A DNA stretch of 64,000 nucleotides from Coleofasciculus sp. FACHB-T130 (GTDB lineage: Bacteria > Cyanobacteriota > Cyanobacteriia > Cyanobacteriales > FACHB-T130), in NCBI RefSeq assembly GCF_014695375.1, contig NZ_JACJOG010000050.1, positions 62,001 to 126,000 of the forward strand, given 5' to 3'. The notes beneath the pieces were generated by a model. The model saw nothing but the letters and a program-made list of their open reading frames with translations. It made no database searches and had not been told where the DNA came from. Numbering within the stretch: position 1 is the first letter of the stretch; every line of letters starts with the position of its first letter. The position numbers were made by a program, and so were the translations under genes. Below, one piece after another: positions 45,781-64,000 of the stretch.

Positions 45781-46185
45781 CTGTCAACCCACCCCAAGGC
45801 GGGAGGTTGATGAAACACGACGATGGCAACCTCTAAGAAGAAAGCAGCAGCAACCTTTCAACCCACCCCAAGGCGGGAGGGTTGATGAAACACAGTTCGT
45901 ATCTGTAGGCAAATTCCAAGCAGTCCAGCTTTCAACCCACCCCAAGGCGGGAGGGTTGATGAAACCTTTCTGATGACGAAGTTTGTTTCGTAATTTCGCC
46001 AACTTTCAACCCACCCCAAGGCGGGAGGGTTGATGAAACTTGAATCTTGCAGAAAAGAAAGTTGTTTCATGTGGCTTTCAACCCACCCCAAGGCGGGAGG
46101 GTTGATGAAACATCTGATGTGCTTATCAGCCGCCTCGAAGGACAATTACTTTCAACCCACCCCAAGGCGGGAGGGTTGATGAAAC
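45781..46185 (-). CRISPR. Type V-K CRISPR array (6 repeats, 5 spacers)
   Basis: Repeats of 37 nt at 45855, 45929, 46003, 46075 and 46149 are identical; the one at 45781 (36 nt) has one substitution and one deletion. Spacers are 35-38 nt. Read on the minus strand the repeat starts GTTTCATCAACCCTCCCG and ends GGGGTGGGTTGAAAG, close to known Cas12k repeats. It is transcribed away from the tracrRNA, so the degenerate copy is the trailer end. No cas1 or cas2 adaptation module is nearby. Confidence 0.97.
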
Positions 46186-58559: not shown

Positions 58560-58682
58560 GCGAAGCCTGCCGTAGGCAACGCACCAATCACTCACAACAC
58601 GCTCCACCCTATCCCAGAAGCGAGCGGGGAGAAACCCTAACACAGTTGACAAAAGCAGTAATTTGTGAATCTAAACTGGGGA

Positions 58683-58832
58683 GAAGCCGATCGCACCTCT
58701 GACATCGAACTCCAAAAACTCGGACAACGGCTGGCTAAACCTAATGGCGAACCGTGGGAGGAGGGGGAACTGGTGGATATTCGACTGGCTGAGGATTTGA
58801 AGCGGAGACAACAAAAAAGGCGATCGCGCTAA
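58683..58832 (+). pseudogene. Truncated second copy of the RHH gene 3' end
   Basis: In frame it reads SDIELQKLGQRLAKPNGEPW and EEGELVDIRLAEDLKRR, nearly identical to the end of the RHH regulator (52140-52278). The DNA is almost identical over about 100 bp. No 5' part or start is present. It is a direct repeat flanking the AAA-STAND pair. Confidence 0.88.
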
Positions 58833-58884
58833 GTAACTCATGCGATCGCCCAAAAGCAATACAGGTTTTTTACTTCATTAGAGG

Positions 58885-59388
58885 CTACACAGACGCAACA
58901 GGCGTCTTTTTAGAGGATTCCCTAGACTCTAGTGATTGGCGTAACTCAGCCTCATTCTGCACCTCAAGGATTGCCTTACCGATCGGATCAACCGCCTTTA
59001 AAACAAGTTGTCCTTTGTTCTTGCCACTCAATTCAATAACTTTTTCACCCAATTCGTCTGCGGTAAACCAGTAAAGCTTGTTGTTACAAAAAATTAAGTA
59101 TTTACCCAGCAGGGTTGGCTCAAAGTTTTTCTTTCGGAGATACTCAACAACTTTCTTAATCTCCTGCATGGAGAGCTTCTTTCTCAGAGTGGCAATAGTT
59201 CTGAGTTCCAAAATTTGATTCAAGCTGTAGAGTACGGTTGGACGATGACCGTTACCACCAAGCTTGGTGGGTTTGACAATACCAGATTTGTCCAGACGGC
59301 TTAGCTGCCCTGAACTGAGTTCCGTCAAGTCTAAAGCTTGTTGTCTTGTAAATACTCCTTCCATATCTTGCCACCTGCCTTTCGGCAC
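58885..59388 (-). CDS. MerR-type regulator, possible CAST repressor (CvkR-like)
   Basis: A 167-aa protein. A MerR-like winged HTH is visible at residues ~9-75: GVFTRQQALDLTELSSGQLS, RLDKSGIVKPTKL, LYSLNQILELRTIATLRKKL and SMQEIKKVVEYLRKK. The C-terminal half is a small mixed domain without the cysteines of metal-sensing MerR proteins. Type V-K elements often encode a MerR-like repressor (CvkR) of cas12k and the tns genes. This is a candidate, but here it is 10 kb from cas12k rather than beside it. It may equally control the adjacent divergent unit. Confidence 0.65.
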   Translation of the reverse strand: MPKGRWQDMEGVFTRQQALDLTELSSGQLSRLDKSGIVKPTKLGGNGHRPTVLYSLNQILELRTIATLRKKLSMQEIKKVVEYLRKKNFEPTLLGKYLIFCNNKLYWFTADELGEKVIELSGKNKGQLVLKAVDPIGKAILEVQNEAELRQSLESRESSKKTPVASV

Positions 59389-59522
59389 TAACCTCTGCGT
59401 CAGTAATTTAAGACGCAGTTTTCCCTTGTAAGTTCAATATCTCGGTTTTTTATATCTGTAACCATCATATCTGTAATGTGGTTAGCATTATTAGTCTCCT
59501 AGTCGGCAATTTAACCGTTACT

Positions 59523-59564
59523 TTGTTTCGGTTATTGTCAAAACCGAAACAACATAGCTACAAT
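59523..59564 (+). promoter_or_regulatory. Predicted promoter overlapped by an 11-bp inverted repeat
   Basis: TTGTTTCGGTT (59523-59533) and AACCGAAACAA (59542-59552) form a perfect inverted repeat with an 8-nt centre. A -35-like TTGTCA (59535-59540) lies in its centre and a -10-like TACAAT (59559-59564) follows after 18 bp. This looks like a repressor operator on the promoter of the downstream small gene. Confidence 0.55.
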
Positions 59565-59598
59565 GAAAGCGCCTGGAGTTGCAGCTCTAGGCGCTTTC
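59565..59598 (+). repeat. 14-bp hairpin
   Basis: GAAAGCGCCT pairs with AGGCGCTTTC, extended by four more pairs (one G-T) around a 6-nt loop. If transcription starts near 59571 the RNA would contain only part of it. It may instead terminate upstream transcripts. Confidence 0.6.
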
Positions 59599-59602
59599 TT
59601 AA

Positions 59603-59672
59603 AATGCTTGGGGTGTTAACACTTCTTCTGGAAGCCTACCCAAGCATTCTTAAAACGTCAAGGCTTCCAGAA
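59603..59672 (+). ncRNA. Predicted H-type pseudoknot in the leader of the Cas2-like gene
   Basis: Two perfect stems interleave. Stem A pairs AATGCTTGGG (59603-59612) with CCCAAGCATT (59639-59648). Stem B pairs TTCTGGAAGCCT (59626-59637) with AGGCTTCCAGAA (59661-59672). Loop lengths of 13, 1 and 12 nt are sterically reasonable for a classic pseudoknot. The second stem ends just before the GGAGAA ribosome-binding site (59675-59680) of the next gene. Confidence 0.6.
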
Positions 59673-59683
59673 ATGGAGAAAAT

Positions 59684-59953
59684 ATGATCTTGGTGACTTA
59701 TGACCTTAATAGTCCCGGACAAAAATACCAAAGGCTCATTCAGGCAATTAAGTCCATAGGACAGTGGTGCAAATGCTTAGAGTCTACTTGGTTGCTGAAA
59801 ACCAGCCTGACCGCCGAGCAAGTGGCTAGTCGTCTCCGACAGCAGCTTGATAACAATGACCACTTACTGGTTATTGCAGTTAACCCGGATAACATTGGGG
59901 GCTGGTTGCCTCAAGAAGCCTGTAACTGGATTAATAGCGATGTGAATCGTTAG
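59684..59953 (+). CDS. Cas2/SinR-like small ferredoxin-fold protein
   Basis: An 89-aa protein with the beta-alpha-beta start MILVTYDLNSPGQKYQRLIQ, then SIGQWCKCLESTWLLKTSLT and HLLVIAVNPDNIGGWLP. This is the pattern of the Cas2/VapD-like or SinR group of small ferredoxin-fold proteins. It is not a CRISPR adaptation Cas2: no Cas1 is nearby. Relatives include toxins of toxin-antitoxin modules, which makes the structured leader of interest. A good ribosome-binding site (GGAGAA) precedes the ATG. Confidence 0.65.
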   Translation: MILVTYDLNSPGQKYQRLIQAIKSIGQWCKCLESTWLLKTSLTAEQVASRLRQQLDNNDHLLVIAVNPDNIGGWLPQEACNWINSDVNR

Positions 59954-59975
59954 CCCGTCAGTAAGCCAGCAGCCC

Positions 59976-60010
59976 GTAGAGTTAGCCCTTGATTTATCAC
60001 CAAGGGCTTT
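59976..60010. terminator. Terminator between the Cas2-like gene and hsdS
   Basis: AGCCCTTG and CAAGGGCT form a stem with an ATTTATCAC loop, followed by TTTC. It sits between convergent genes. Confidence 0.75.
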
Positions 60011-60024
60011 CTTGTGTTGGTGTC

Positions 60025-61395
60025 CTATTCCAACCCTGGCAAAGTTAGCTGGATGGGTTCTGTGTCTTGCTGTTTTGCTTTCGTGCCAAGATATTCAGCA
60101 GTATCACCCATCATCTGAGTAGCGGCTTTGGCTTCCGCTTCGGCTTTTGCCTGTTCTGCGCCAATCTCTTCTAATAAGACGGATGCAGGCTCATCATTGG
60201 ACTCTTGAGGAGTCAGTTCACCCCGAAAGGCACGATGCAGCAGGGTTTGAAATAAATGCTCTGCTTGGCGATCGCCTTCCCGTTGTTGGGCGCGGAGGCG
60301 TTCAAATTGCTGGACGATTTGGGCAAATTTTTCTTGAAGAGGGAGGGGCGGAACTGACACAGGTAAATCTTTCACATCTCCTACATTTACCCGTTGAACT
60401 GTAGTCCCCATAGAAACCTTTAACAAGTTTTCTTGAGTAGGTGGAGAGTTAAGAAAATGCGTTAAATAAATTGGATTAACTTGGCGTTTATCAGCTCTTA
60501 ACAGCATCATTCTCTGACCTATTGCATACTTGCGATTATCTGCAATATAAGATGCAACACCAAATGAGCCTTCTCTTGCAAAAACAATATCTCCTTGTTC
60601 TGGTTTATTTACATCAGTGAGTTTTTCATACTCTTCTGGTGAAACATAAACTGTATTACCAAACTGAAAAAACCCTGGAACTACATCATTCGTTTTGATT
60701 AATGGAATTCCTTCAGGAACATAAGGAGGAGTGTAATGTTTACAGTCAAATATTTTTAAACAGACTTCACTCAAGGTCATCCTTTCAAAGGACGGCTGTT
60801 GAGCGCCGAACATCTCCAAGAAGACGGATTGCAGGTAGGTGTCGCCCAGTTGTAGGGCGTAGCGTCGGGTGCGTCGGAGTCTGTCGGCTTTTTGTGCGAT
60901 CGCAGCAATCCGCTTTTGTTCTACTAGCGACGGCAGAATAACTTTTAGCGATTTAACAGTCTCTTGATTGATACTAGCTTGGTTTGAAATATTTGCTTTT
61001 GAAAGTAACTCTTGCCTGCTCATGTCACTAGCAAGGTATTGAACCAGAAACCGAGGTATCACTTTAGTTGTATCAACGCGAAAACGCATCATATTAGACT
61101 CATAAACCGTAGGTTCTTCAACCTCACTAACTAATACTGCCTTTCCGACTCCTCCAGGTTTCTTGGAGACGCGATTAATTAAAATATCTCCTCGCAGGAC
61201 TTCATACTTTTTTTGCTCTTTTTCCGTAATCTGAACTCGTCTAGCTTCACTAAAGTCAGCAGTGAATCCTCGATAAAGGCTTTTGATATCAAGTAACAAA
61301 GTACCTGAGCCAATAAATTCTTCAGATTTATAAAGACCGTTAGAAGGTCCAAATGTAATCAAATCTCCGAGTTCATATACATCCATACTGAACAC
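60025..61395 (-). CDS. hsdS: Type I restriction-modification specificity subunit HsdS
   Basis: A 456-aa protein with two target-recognition domains, each followed by the conserved helical spacer. The first repeat ends LPSLVEQKRIAAIAQKADRL and the second PPLPLQEKFAQIVQQFERLR. HsdS sets the bipartite recognition sequence for methylation and cleavage. It follows hsdM by 7 bp on the same strand. The acidic/Gln-rich C-terminal tail after FRGELTPQES is a normal extension. Confidence 0.92.
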   Translation of the reverse strand: MFSMDVYELGDLITFGPSNGLYKSEEFIGSGTLLLDIKSLYRGFTADFSEARRVQITEKEQKKYEVLRGDILINRVSKKPGGVGKAVLVSEVEEPTVYESNMMRFRVDTTKVIPRFLVQYLASDMSRQELLSKANISNQASINQETVKSLKVILPSLVEQKRIAAIAQKADRLRRTRRYALQLGDTYLQSVFLEMFGAQQPSFERMTLSEVCLKIFDCKHYTPPYVPEGIPLIKTNDVVPGFFQFGNTVYVSPEEYEKLTDVNKPEQGDIVFAREGSFGVASYIADNRKYAIGQRMMLLRADKRQVNPIYLTHFLNSPPTQENLLKVSMGTTVQRVNVGDVKDLPVSVPPLPLQEKFAQIVQQFERLRAQQREGDRQAEHLFQTLLHRAFRGELTPQESNDEPASVLLEEIGAEQAKAEAEAKAATQMMGDTAEYLGTKAKQQDTEPIQLTLPGLE

Positions 61396-61402
61396 AATCT
61401 CT

Positions 61403-63094
61403 CTATGCTTCTATGTAGCGCATTAACTCCTGCATTTCCTCTTCCATAACATGCTCTAACTTTAGGAACCTCTCCAGCGTCACTGAGGGCGACTCATAAT
61501 AAGGCTCATCCTGCTCAATCTGACGGTAACGACTCGCTGAAAGGTCGTATTTATTCCCCTTCACCTGCGCCTTCGTCACCCAAAACTGGCGATTCAACTG
61601 ATTGATTTCCGCTTGCAGGGGTGCCATTTGCTCGTGCAGTTGTGCCAGCCGTTGCCTATCGCCTTCCAAAGCGAGGCGGGTTGGCTCATCATCAGCGGGT
61701 GCGATCGCATTCTCAAACGTCAGGCGATTGATTTCCTTGAGCAGTATCAACCGTTCAGCTTTCATCGGTGCAATCTCAGATTTTAACTCACTCAGGCGTT
61801 CCGCTCTTTGAGTCGTGAAATCAGGATTAAACCGATTCTTCCAACAGGTGAGAATATCTGGGATATCATTCTCTGCTACAGGTTGCCGCTTATCATCCAG
61901 CGAAAACCCATCGTGTTCCATGTCATAGAACCAAATCTTGTCCGTCGTACCGCCACGAGTAAACAGCAGCACCGCCGTCGAAACACCCGCATACGGTTTA
62001 AACACCCCAGACGGCATCGACACCACCCCATCCAGGCGATGAGTTTCAATAATCTTCTTGCGAATCTCCTGATGTTGCTTGCTTGAACCAAACAGCACCC
62101 CATCCGGCACAATTACCGCACAGCGTCCCCCCATATCCAACACGCGCTCAATCAGGTGCAAAAATAGCAGTTCCGTCTTCTTACACTTCGTTGGCAGGGT
62201 GGGGTTAATATCCGATTCATCCATCTTCCCCTTAAACGGAGGATTCATCAGCACCACATCCAAGCTTTTCTCATCCTTGAACGACTTAGACAGGGTATCC
62301 ATGTAGAAAAAGCGGGGGTGCTTAATTCCGTGCAGCATCAGGTTCATCGAACCAATCCGCAGCATCGTCATGCCAGAATCATTGTCATAGGCAGTAAACG
62401 CCTCAGTTTGTAAAAACTCCCGTTCTTCGTCACTGAGTAAATCCCCAATTAACTGCGGTTTCCCCTGCTCATCCGGTTCGCTGTGCTGTTCTAGGATGTA
62501 CTCATAGGCATTGACCAAAAACCCACAAGTCCCCGCCGCCAAGTCCCCAATTCGTTCCTTCGGTTTGGGGTCAACCATCTGCACCATCATGCGGATAATA
62601 TGGCGAGGCGTCCGAAACTGTCCGTTACGTCCTGCGGTGTTGAGTTTACTCAGCAGGTACTCGTACAAGTCCCCCTGAACATCCTGATTCTGTCCCGAGA
62701 TTTTCAGCGCATCAATCAGGTTACAGACTTCTATCAACGTCCCCGGTTTGCTGATTTTAAACTCAGCATTCTGCATATACCGCTCAAAAGAACTCCCTTG
62801 AGTTCCCGCCGTCCGCAACCAGGGAAAGACTTCCTCTCGAACGTGCTTCAGCGCCTCGTCTGCTTTAAAGTTAATCCAGTGTGACCAGCGTAATTCTGGC
62901 TTAATTTGCGGTTCAAAGGGTTTATTGCGGCGTTTTGCCTGTTTCTCCCGCTGGTTCTCTGCATCATCCAGGCGTTTGAGGAACAGCAGGTAGGAGAATT
63001 GTTCAATGGAATCCATCGGGTTGGAGAGTCCCGACGACCATAATCTATCCCAAATTTGGTCAACTTGCGATCGCAGTTCAGGGTCAGTGAGCAT
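61403..63094 (-). CDS. hsdM: Type I restriction-modification DNA methyltransferase HsdM
   Basis: A 563-aa N6-adenine methyltransferase. The N-terminal HsdM helical domain (QVDQIWDRLWSSG) is followed by the SAM-binding motif GDLAAGTCGFLVNAYEYI and the catalytic motif VVLMNPPFKGK. The C-terminal helical region ends beside HsdS. The restriction subunit hsdR is not in the window; with the strand order seen, it could lie upstream beyond 64000. The cargo position in the CAST suggests phage or plasmid exclusion. Confidence 0.94.
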   Translation of the reverse strand: MLTDPELRSQVDQIWDRLWSSGLSNPMDSIEQFSYLLFLKRLDDAENQREKQAKRRNKPFEPQIKPELRWSHWINFKADEALKHVREEVFPWLRTAGTQGSSFERYMQNAEFKISKPGTLIEVCNLIDALKISGQNQDVQGDLYEYLLSKLNTAGRNGQFRTPRHIIRMMVQMVDPKPKERIGDLAAGTCGFLVNAYEYILEQHSEPDEQGKPQLIGDLLSDEEREFLQTEAFTAYDNDSGMTMLRIGSMNLMLHGIKHPRFFYMDTLSKSFKDEKSLDVVLMNPPFKGKMDESDINPTLPTKCKKTELLFLHLIERVLDMGGRCAVIVPDGVLFGSSKQHQEIRKKIIETHRLDGVVSMPSGVFKPYAGVSTAVLLFTRGGTTDKIWFYDMEHDGFSLDDKRQPVAENDIPDILTCWKNRFNPDFTTQRAERLSELKSEIAPMKAERLILLKEINRLTFENAIAPADDEPTRLALEGDRQRLAQLHEQMAPLQAEINQLNRQFWVTKAQVKGNKYDLSASRYRQIEQDEPYYESPSVTLERFLKLEHVMEEEMQELMRYIEA

Positions 63095-63097
63095 TTT

Positions 63098-64000
63098 TTA
63101 GAAGCAAAGAACAGGAAATCTAGTAATTCCGCTAGCTAAGACATCATCAGGATTTATTATCTTATTTTTATGCCGTTCAAGATAATTAATACTTGATTGA
63201 TACTGTCCTCGAAGACATCCAAATACTATATCTCTTGGATTAGCATCTAACTCAAAGTTGAAAGAAATATTATCTAGGATTAAAATTGATACAGCAAGTA
63301 ATTTTGCAACATACCATTCAAGATGAATCCATAAATAATTCCCTGATCGCCCAAAACGTCCTGAATGCACGATTCTATTTCTTGTTTGATACAAACGATC
63401 TAGTTGGTAATCCAAATTTCGCTTAGAAAGAGTTATCAACTTGTGTAAATCTTCCAATTTTTCCCACTTTTCGTTTATATCGCGATATTGCTTGCATAAT
63501 AATGGCTCACTCTGCATATCATGATAAGGATCTTCGGATGTGTTTTTCTTACTTCGATCAATAATCCAGCAAATCCAATCACATAAGCCAATAGGATCAA
63601 ATTCATTGGCTTTGCTGTTATTTTGAGGGGAGTATATTTTTGTCCATTTAATAGCATTCGATGTCGTTCTTATTCGTTGAATTGTAGCATTTACACGCCT
63701 GCCTACCGCTCCTAATGCTAACGTGCTAGATACATTTTTTTTAATAGTTAAAATATCTGCTTCATTTGTTCTAAGTCCCATTAGTGATTCTAGAGCTGTC
63801 CACAGCAATACATAGGAATTTTCTATAGTTGGTACGCTTAATGCAAGATGATATAAATACAGAGATTCTTCAACTTTTCCTAAAACTTCATCTTCAAAAT
63901 CTTGGAGCTTTTTGTATTTTTTTAATGATTCTTCCAAGGTATTGATACGCGCTAAGGGAATAATGGGATCTCTATCATCTATAAAATTTAACTGTGACTC
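63098..64000 (-). CDS. HEPN/Apea-like protein of the RM cluster (5' end outside window)
   Basis: The frame stays open to the window edge, so the start is not visible; a TTG at 63937 is probably internal. Helical features include LYLYHLALSVPTIENSYVLL and WTALESLMGL. LYQTRNRIVHSGRFG contains the R(x4-6)H-type motif (RNRIVH) of HEPN ribonuclease-like domains. HEPN proteins often accompany restriction or abortive-infection systems. Its stop is 3 bp before the hsdM start, so it belongs to the hsd operon. Confidence 0.55.
   Translation of the reverse strand, partial: ESQLNFIDDRDPIIPLARINTLEESLKKYKKLQDFEDEVLGKVEESLYLYHLALSVPTIENSYVLLWTALESLMGLRTNEADILTIKKNVSSTLALGAVGRRVNATIQRIRTTSNAIKWTKIYSPQNNSKANEFDPIGLCDWICWIIDRSKKNTSEDPYHDMQSEPLLCKQYRDINEKWEKLEDLHKLITLSKRNLDYQLDRLYQTRNRIVHSGRFGRSGNYLWIHLEWYVAKLLAVSILILDNISFNFELDANPRDIVFGCLRGQYQSSINYLERHKNKIINPDDVLASGITRFPVLCF

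Follow-up and report, generated by a model that had tools for sequence, protein, structure and literature searches.

Does the strongly foldable leader in front of a small Cas2/VapD-like gene of the cyanobacterium Coleofasciculus sp. FACHB-T130 act on that gene in cis, or does the leader RNA pair up with the encoded protein? The locus lies near the end of the window, i.e., the whole stretch of 64,000 nucleotides analysed here, to which all coordinates refer. A first-pass annotation had described it as a possible RNA-linked toxin unit. Based on the analysis below, we give about even credence to an acquired nuclease gene that is under MerR control and is limited in its translation, in cis, by a pseudoknot particular to this locus. 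The toxin-RNA reading is unproven and without support from conservation; the observation on which it was built is sound and unusual.

Anatomy of the leader

The elements of the locus are as follows.

58885..59388, minus strand: MerR-type helix-turn-helix regulator gene, 167 aa, divergent from the Cas2-like gene
59523-59533 / 59542-59552, no strand: 11-bp inverted repeat TTGTTTCGGTT / AACCGAAACAA with an 8-nt spacer, flanking the -35; putative operator
59535..59564, plus strand: promoter-like TTGTCA-18-TACAAT (-35 at 59535-59540, -10 at 59559-59564; 10/12 matches)
59565-59598, plus strand: hairpin near the predicted transcript start, 17-nt arms, 88% complementary
59603..59672, plus strand: H-type pseudoknot, two perfect, strictly interleaved stems
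59603-59612 / 59639-59648, plus strand: stem 1, 10 bp, perfect
59613-59622, plus strand: palindrome GTGTTAACAC, within pseudoknot loop 1
59626-59637 / 59661-59672, plus strand: stem 2, 12 bp, perfect
59604..59687, plus strand: possible 27-aa upstream ORF MLGVLTLLLEAYPSILKTSRLPEMEKI, inside the pseudoknot and spanning both stems
59675-59678, plus strand: ribosome-binding site GGAG, 2 nt past stem 2
59684..59953, plus strand: phrog_1090-family Cas2/VapD-like protein, 89 aa (profile match and predicted fold)
60025-61395: HsdS, type I restriction, adjoining the Cas2-like gene
61403-63094: HsdM, type I restriction, beside hsdS

The 11-bp inverted repeat over the -35 element and the hairpin of the first-pass annotation are both present, and its promoter-operator was found beside a divergent MerR-type gene, the operator being putative. 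The promoter call rests mainly on position, because one promoter-like site was found at the locus versus 1.1 expected by chance. A transcription start about 7 nt past the -10 would place the beginning of the message within the hairpin. This hairpin was also considered as a terminator and rejected as such, since a simple consensus scan of 59380-60060 returned 0 terminator-like sites. A 12-nt direct repeat, GCTTTCTTAAAA / GCATTCTTAAAA, occurs at 59593-59604, where the hairpin ends, and at 59644-59655, where stem 1 ends.

The H-type pseudoknot with its perfect 10- and 12-bp stems, directly followed by the ribosome-binding site, was likewise confirmed at the locus. Its loops are 13, 1 and 12 nt long, which we judge sterically reasonable, and the two stems can form together because they share no bases. 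An attenuator working through mutually exclusive hairpins was rejected on the same ground. The summed energies of stems 1 and 2 are about -19 and -25 kcal/mol, and the nested minimum is -23.7. The penalty for a pseudoknot is roughly 12 kcal/mol, and by this rough estimate the pseudoknot would be competitive with the nested minimum even after the penalty. Nested-only folding gives stem 2 a probability of 0.93 and stem 1 one of 0.07, a preference that arises because a nested model cannot hold both. In the fold of 140 nt, GAG of the Shine-Dalgarno (SD) sequence pairs with UUUCUU at 59595-59600; the frequency of this minimum fold is only 0.04, and the pairing is missing from the centroid. The fold of 59603-59683 leaves the SD unpaired.

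How far the interleaved stems exceed chance was assessed at several scales. In 3000 rounds of dinucleotide shuffling of the 170-nt region, the smaller stem never exceeded 8 bp, a length reached in 2 of them, and 120 shuffles of the whole window (7.7 Mb in total) yielded no case beyond 9/10 bp. In 1,148,512 bases of the host genome (of ~6.2 Mb), one further place has stems of 10/12 bp, and it is an AT simple repeat. Additionally, the folding of 59560-59690 is far stabler than that of its shuffles (z -5.9, 0/200). The interleaved 10/12-bp stems are far above chance, and the first-pass opinion that their chance formation is unlikely was borne out by the shuffles and the 1.15-Mb genome scan. The pseudoknot-capable leader is a real sequence feature, so far a one-off, and would presumably fold in vivo.

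The Cas2-like protein, its regulator and their distribution

By sequence, the window protein is a member of phrog_1090 (PHROGs v4, 'unknown function'), which it matches over its full length (E 1.4e-29; residues 2-88 on 4-89 of 90). The same profile is matched by 111/111 aligned sequences, the window's included; this alignment was obtained from 145 loci, 127 of which passed a filter on length and source, after which 16 were removed by hand. Against the Pfam Cas2 model PF09827 the protein scores 15.7 bits, below the curated cut-off of 23.8, and at E values up to 0.1 this model is matched by 31/111 sequences and NCBIfam cas2 by 12/111. A sequence search of solved structures gave no confident match, the best being a Cas2 at E 0.19.

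The AlphaFold2 model of the protein has a mean pLDDT of 89.7. Cas2 chains fill the top rows of the Foldseek comparison, with a best E of only ~1e-3, while VIA-align places BPSL1038 (PDB 7vxr) first (Z 9.8, rmsd 2.5, 82 aligned residues, 8% identity), the best Cas2 rows at Z 8.0-9.1 and VapD of H. influenzae at Z 6.4; rows named neither Cas2 nor BPSL1038 reach up to Z 7.9. Of the residues conserved in the superfamily, the Asp that closes strand 1 is present as D7 and the Ser close to strands 2/3 as S34. In a set of 15 sequences (the window's, two from genomes of the same phylum, and the others from plasmids or phages), Y6, D7, L8, Y15, S34, W36, D56 and D59 are invariant; Y6, D7, L8, Y15, S34 and D59 are so in the 111-sequence alignment, which was gathered partly with motifs containing D7 and S34. 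The predicted fold and the Asp/Ser pair support the Cas2/VapD-like ferredoxin-fold gene of the first-pass annotation. Because of the Cas2/BPSL1038 fold, the Asp/Ser pattern and the effect of a D7N change in a VapD, the protein is likely a nuclease.

The divergent regulator matches Pfam MerR_1 at 5.7e-05 (23.6 bits; cut-off 21.6). Its relatives were found in 13/386 genomes of the phylum and 27/388 of the order, the own genome included, and on named plasmids, where 10/10 records are cyanobacterial. A relative on a Leptolyngbya boryana plasmid is 61% identical over residues 8-144, and its gene and another small one, P0001 (86 aa), are divergently oriented. Read by eye, the L. boryana locus has TTGAAA-17-TATAAT, the half-site AACCGAAA right behind the -35 and a short leader; the half-site in this position is common to the window and the L. 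boryana MerR locus. As half-site and promoter layout recur there with a short leader, the pseudoknot would not be part of the MerR operator. Operator and promoter thus appear to travel with the MerR gene, and the pseudoknot does not appear to do so.

The Cas2-like gene is present in 1/6 genomes of the family, 1/388 of the order and 3/386 of the phylum, the own genome being counted each time, and the same-genus genome G003 is without it. Plasmid records with a match numbered 81 and phage records 29. The records listed, 60 of plasmids and 29 of phages, include no cyanobacterium, and at many of the plasmid matches among them no feature is annotated. Many small 4863-bp Enterobacteriaceae plasmids carry the gene; locus L004 was typed as ColRNAI.

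A 6.5-kb query compared with five sister genomes matched WD40-repeat DNA in 5/5, and it also matched a dispersed repeat near 58560-58846 and a 213-bp stretch, the hsdS end in G004. Nothing matched between those pieces, i.e., no synteny across the unit was detected in these five genomes. An empty-site comparison was tried with them and abandoned, since with the intervening DNA unmatched no empty site could be defined. Because a type I restriction system adjoins the gene and synteny was not found in the five sister genomes, the gene looks horizontally acquired and is probably mobile.

The surroundings also contain other elements. The dispersed repeat itself (58682-58846, ~130-160 nt) has copies 82-86% identical in G003 and G004 and overlaps a short ORF at 58665-58832. 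A 279-aa gene beside hsdM (63098-63937) has a weak match to ApeA, a defence protein (E 0.0013), and the locus may therefore be a defence island. CRISPR repeats were found at 45855-46185 (five Rfam CRISPR-DR15 matches), ~400 nt past a tRNA-Ala gene.

Leaders and neighbours across the family

To compare leaders, homologues were found with small-alignment scans of genome contigs, a single-protein scan having given no match, and the homologue lists comprised the best 80 of 108, 80 of 121 and 80 of 175. The starting set of 242 sequences included some that are not homologue loci; the profile matched 227 at 1e-5, and clustering at 90% left 145 loci, the window's among them. The comparison covered 250 nt upstream of the gene, some loci, e.g., L069, being shorter upstream.

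No comparable interleaved pairing was found upstream of the gene in the 144 other non-redundant homologues (0/144). Interleaved stems of 10/12 bp occur in the window only, the next best case among the 145 loci being 10/8 (L234); the smaller stem is 7 bp in 23 loci and 6 bp in 67, and 53 loci are without an interleaved pair of at least 6 bp. The first-pass annotation had named homologues whose leaders lack any conserved pairing as what would refute its reading, and at the family level no such pairing was found in the 250 nt compared. Since the nearest homologues are only ~55% identical, among the matches listed, this is evidence against a family-wide RNA partner and not against a locus-specific regulator. 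The loci of MerR-gene relatives gave the same picture: among 38 such loci, 33 were anchored (not L027, L028, L029, L291 and L292), and none of the 32 others has a comparable pseudoknot, the best being 9/8 (L276).

Searches with the leader DNA itself returned no homologous leader in plasmids, and in phages two records of one phage (~28 bp, E 0.2). Apart from the own locus, the one match in 60 relatives and 358 phylum genomes, the latter scanned with two candidates scored per genome, was a stretch of 29 bp in G177 (90%, E 6.5e-4). The G177 match is inside an open frame, whose start we take to resemble RsmG, and the last nine residues of the 27-aa ORF match there. It is probably a coincidence, because an E of 6.5e-4 comes from one genome among hundreds. 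A degenerate stem pattern had 0 matches in viral contigs, a weak negative because the pattern demands exact arms. As no homologous leader was found, there is no covariation to draw upon. A known RNA family was rejected: at the locus all Rfam families score below their gathering thresholds, and relaxed matches are at chance level (preQ1-II, 16.9 bits versus a gathering score of 47).

The genes around the homologues suggest a wider pattern. A P0001-like gene lies just downstream in 6/145 Cas2-like loci and also, by eye, in L005, where the ORF rule had missed it; a KEVTSKRAASAASKVLR-type gene lies near 10/145 loci and a DUF2188-type gene near 5/145. Small-neighbour families were noted at Cas2-like loci L044, L050, L051, L063, L071 and L074, two of the family names used, YjzC and DUF3606, being presumptive. 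MerR relatives are divergent from the same kinds of small gene in 6/32 other anchored loci, with none in 26/32. These neighbours are P0001 (L016, the origin of the seed), a KEVTS type (L288), a presumably YjzC-like gene (L294) and DUF2188-type genes at L024, L279 and L280, of which L279 and L280 are nearly identical; the DUF2188-type seed is not an exact copy of a record. As a control, 383,230 bases of one genome, the own one, were searched with the small-protein seeds, and no ORF of 40 aa or more matched. The Cas2-like and MerR families therefore appear, by sequence comparison, to share tiny neighbour families.

In Alphaproteobacteria, the motif TGTCCG-N14-24-GCAT stands on both strands as mirror images within at most 260 nt before the gene in 12/145 loci (L005, L007, L008, L041, L046, L051, L058, L062, L063, L069, L074 and L077). 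These leaders themselves served to define the motif, whose plus-strand count is 11 in 247,834 bases of loci, nearly all at these sites. A sigma-like neighbour gene occurs in 13/145 loci, 10 of which have both motif and gene, its matches to sigma-70 region 2 being below the Pfam cut-off, and several alphaproteobacterial loci have a gene for an ImmA/IrrE-type peptidase nearby. We considered these palindromes as a structured RNA leader and rejected that reading: as DNA they fit two mirror-image promoters by a sigma-like gene, so they were not counted as RNA support. They may represent a divergent promoter pair that belongs to a private sigma-like factor.

The Cas2-like gene thus turns up repeatedly beside strong, exchangeable control, and the regulators associated with the family differ greatly: a MerR type here, a sigma-like factor with an IrrE-type peptidase nearby in Alphaproteobacteria and HTH repressor-like genes elsewhere. 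That a large, uncharacterised family of nuclease fold, carried by phages and plasmids, has such different regulators and recurring tiny proteins beside it suggests an effector under tight control, the trigger of which can be sought. In the open-access literature, as a limited negative, no title was found that links the phrog_1090 family to an RNA partner or to these regulators.

Readings of the locus and known systems

We propose that a MerR-type protein would control transcription from the operator-promoter, and that the mRNA would start at the promoter inside the operator, its leader consisting of the hairpin followed by the H-type pseudoknot. The 3′ edge of the pseudoknot lies 2 nt before the SD and 11 nt before the AUG, which is within the usual footprint of an initiating 30S subunit, and may crowd the 30S loading site. 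The folded leader would keep translation of a potentially harmful nuclease low. Additionally, the product, if it binds nucleic acid, may recognise its own leader and so provide feedback, as do T4 gp32 and ribosomal protein S15. If the pseudoknot does control translation, the locus would offer a natural setting in which to study how RNA holds back an orphan Cas2-like nuclease, and would bear on the behaviour of Cas2 relatives outside CRISPR.

The interleaved inverted repeats could instead act as DNA, e.g., by serving a second factor as its operator or recombination sites, the RNA pseudoknot being incidental. The arms of both repeats are almost equally spaced (36 and 35 nt from start to start), and the nested alphaproteobacterial palindromes before homologues look like a divergent promoter pair, i.e., DNA elements; however, the repeats of the window are interleaved, not nested, they follow the promoter and precede the SD, so that the presumed transcript contains them, and no second copy was found in the own genome. 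We regard a DNA role as rather unlikely. Ribosomes translating the 27-aa ORF might also melt the pseudoknot and reinitiate at ATGA, given that this frame (59604-59687) covers both stems and that its UGA overlaps the AUG of the gene. Such coupling seems improbable in view of the lack of a convincing ribosome-binding site in the 20 nt before the ORF, and no relative of the leader DNA was found in the plasmids, phages and genomes searched. An arrangement without function, arisen by chance or decaying, agrees with the lack of a homologous leader in anything searched; nevertheless, the perfect interleaved stems are of mixed composition and stand right before the SD, the counts from the shuffled windows (none in 120) and the 1.15 Mb of genome (one, the AT repeat) weigh against it, and such stems should presumably soon be lost to mutation. 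It is the reading to which we give least weight, being very improbable.

An RNA antitoxin, type III-like or otherwise a partner RNA, would bind and block the Cas2/VapD-like nuclease. ToxN-type toxins have a fold other than Cas2-like, and the RNA is absent at the 144 other non-redundant homologues. There is also no tandem antitoxin array, and no terminator-like site stands between RNA and gene. On the other side, a pseudoknot-capable RNA does adjoin a small nuclease-fold gene, the direct repeat GCTTTCTTAAAA / GCATTCTTAAAA flanking stem 1 could, speculatively, be a processing site, and VapD, a superfamily relative, is a proven toxin (PMC11980593). An RNA that restrains the nuclease in the manner of type III systems is, on balance, quite unlikely. 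We are more doubtful still that the protein binds, and perhaps cuts, its own pseudoknotted leader while the RNA holds it inactive; if true, a toxin with a Cas2-type fold would here have an RNA partner, and it would stand apart from the three type III toxin families known. Of the first-pass proposal, the cis-regulator half is compatible with everything seen, while the 'RNA-linked toxin unit' found no support, given the 0/144 homologues and the failure to find either a tandem repeat array or a terminator preceding the toxin gene, both hallmarks of type III systems.

Among known systems, type III loci as set out in PMC5086642 consist of a repeat array, then a terminator, then the toxin gene. Like the window, ToxIN, CptIN and TenpIN have, under one promoter, an RNA able to form a pseudoknot followed by a small gene of nuclease fold. 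They differ from it in the tandem array, as 59500-59700 holds only the 12-nt two-copy direct repeat, and in the Rho-independent terminator before the toxin gene, for which the simple consensus scan of 59380-60060 gave 0 sites. The VapD toxins of VapXD, VapYD and VapWD share a ferredoxin-like fold, Asp7 and a conserved Ser with the window protein, and D7N abolished toxicity of the one VapD so changed, as PMC11980593 reports. The structural score of VapD (Z 6.4) is no better than those of unrelated rows of the same list. No second homologue is detectable in the own genome at E 0.001, so there is no evident VapW, and no protein partner on the same strand adjoins the Cas2-like gene, except the 27-aa ORF.

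BPSL1038, a dsDNase in vitro with the motif D(X20)SST (PMC10491678), is the best structural match to the window protein; both have the Asp in front and S-T at the turn. The window protein reads D7(X26)S34-T35-W36, with E33 in place of the first Ser, and so departs from D(X20)SST. The CRISPR Cas2 proteins are alike in fold, but the window protein is below the PF09827 cut-off and its neighbours are MerR-like and HsdS, not cas, the CRISPR repeats being ~13.5 kb away. Precedents for pseudoknot translational operators are T4 gene 32 and rpsO, as presented in PMC3014915. The distance from pseudoknot to AUG is 11 nt in the window versus 67 nt in gene 32, and binding by the product is only putative here; what the window shares with gene 32 and rpsO is the layout, with a pseudoknot in the 5′ leader of the message that encodes the (here putative) nucleic-acid-binding protein itself.
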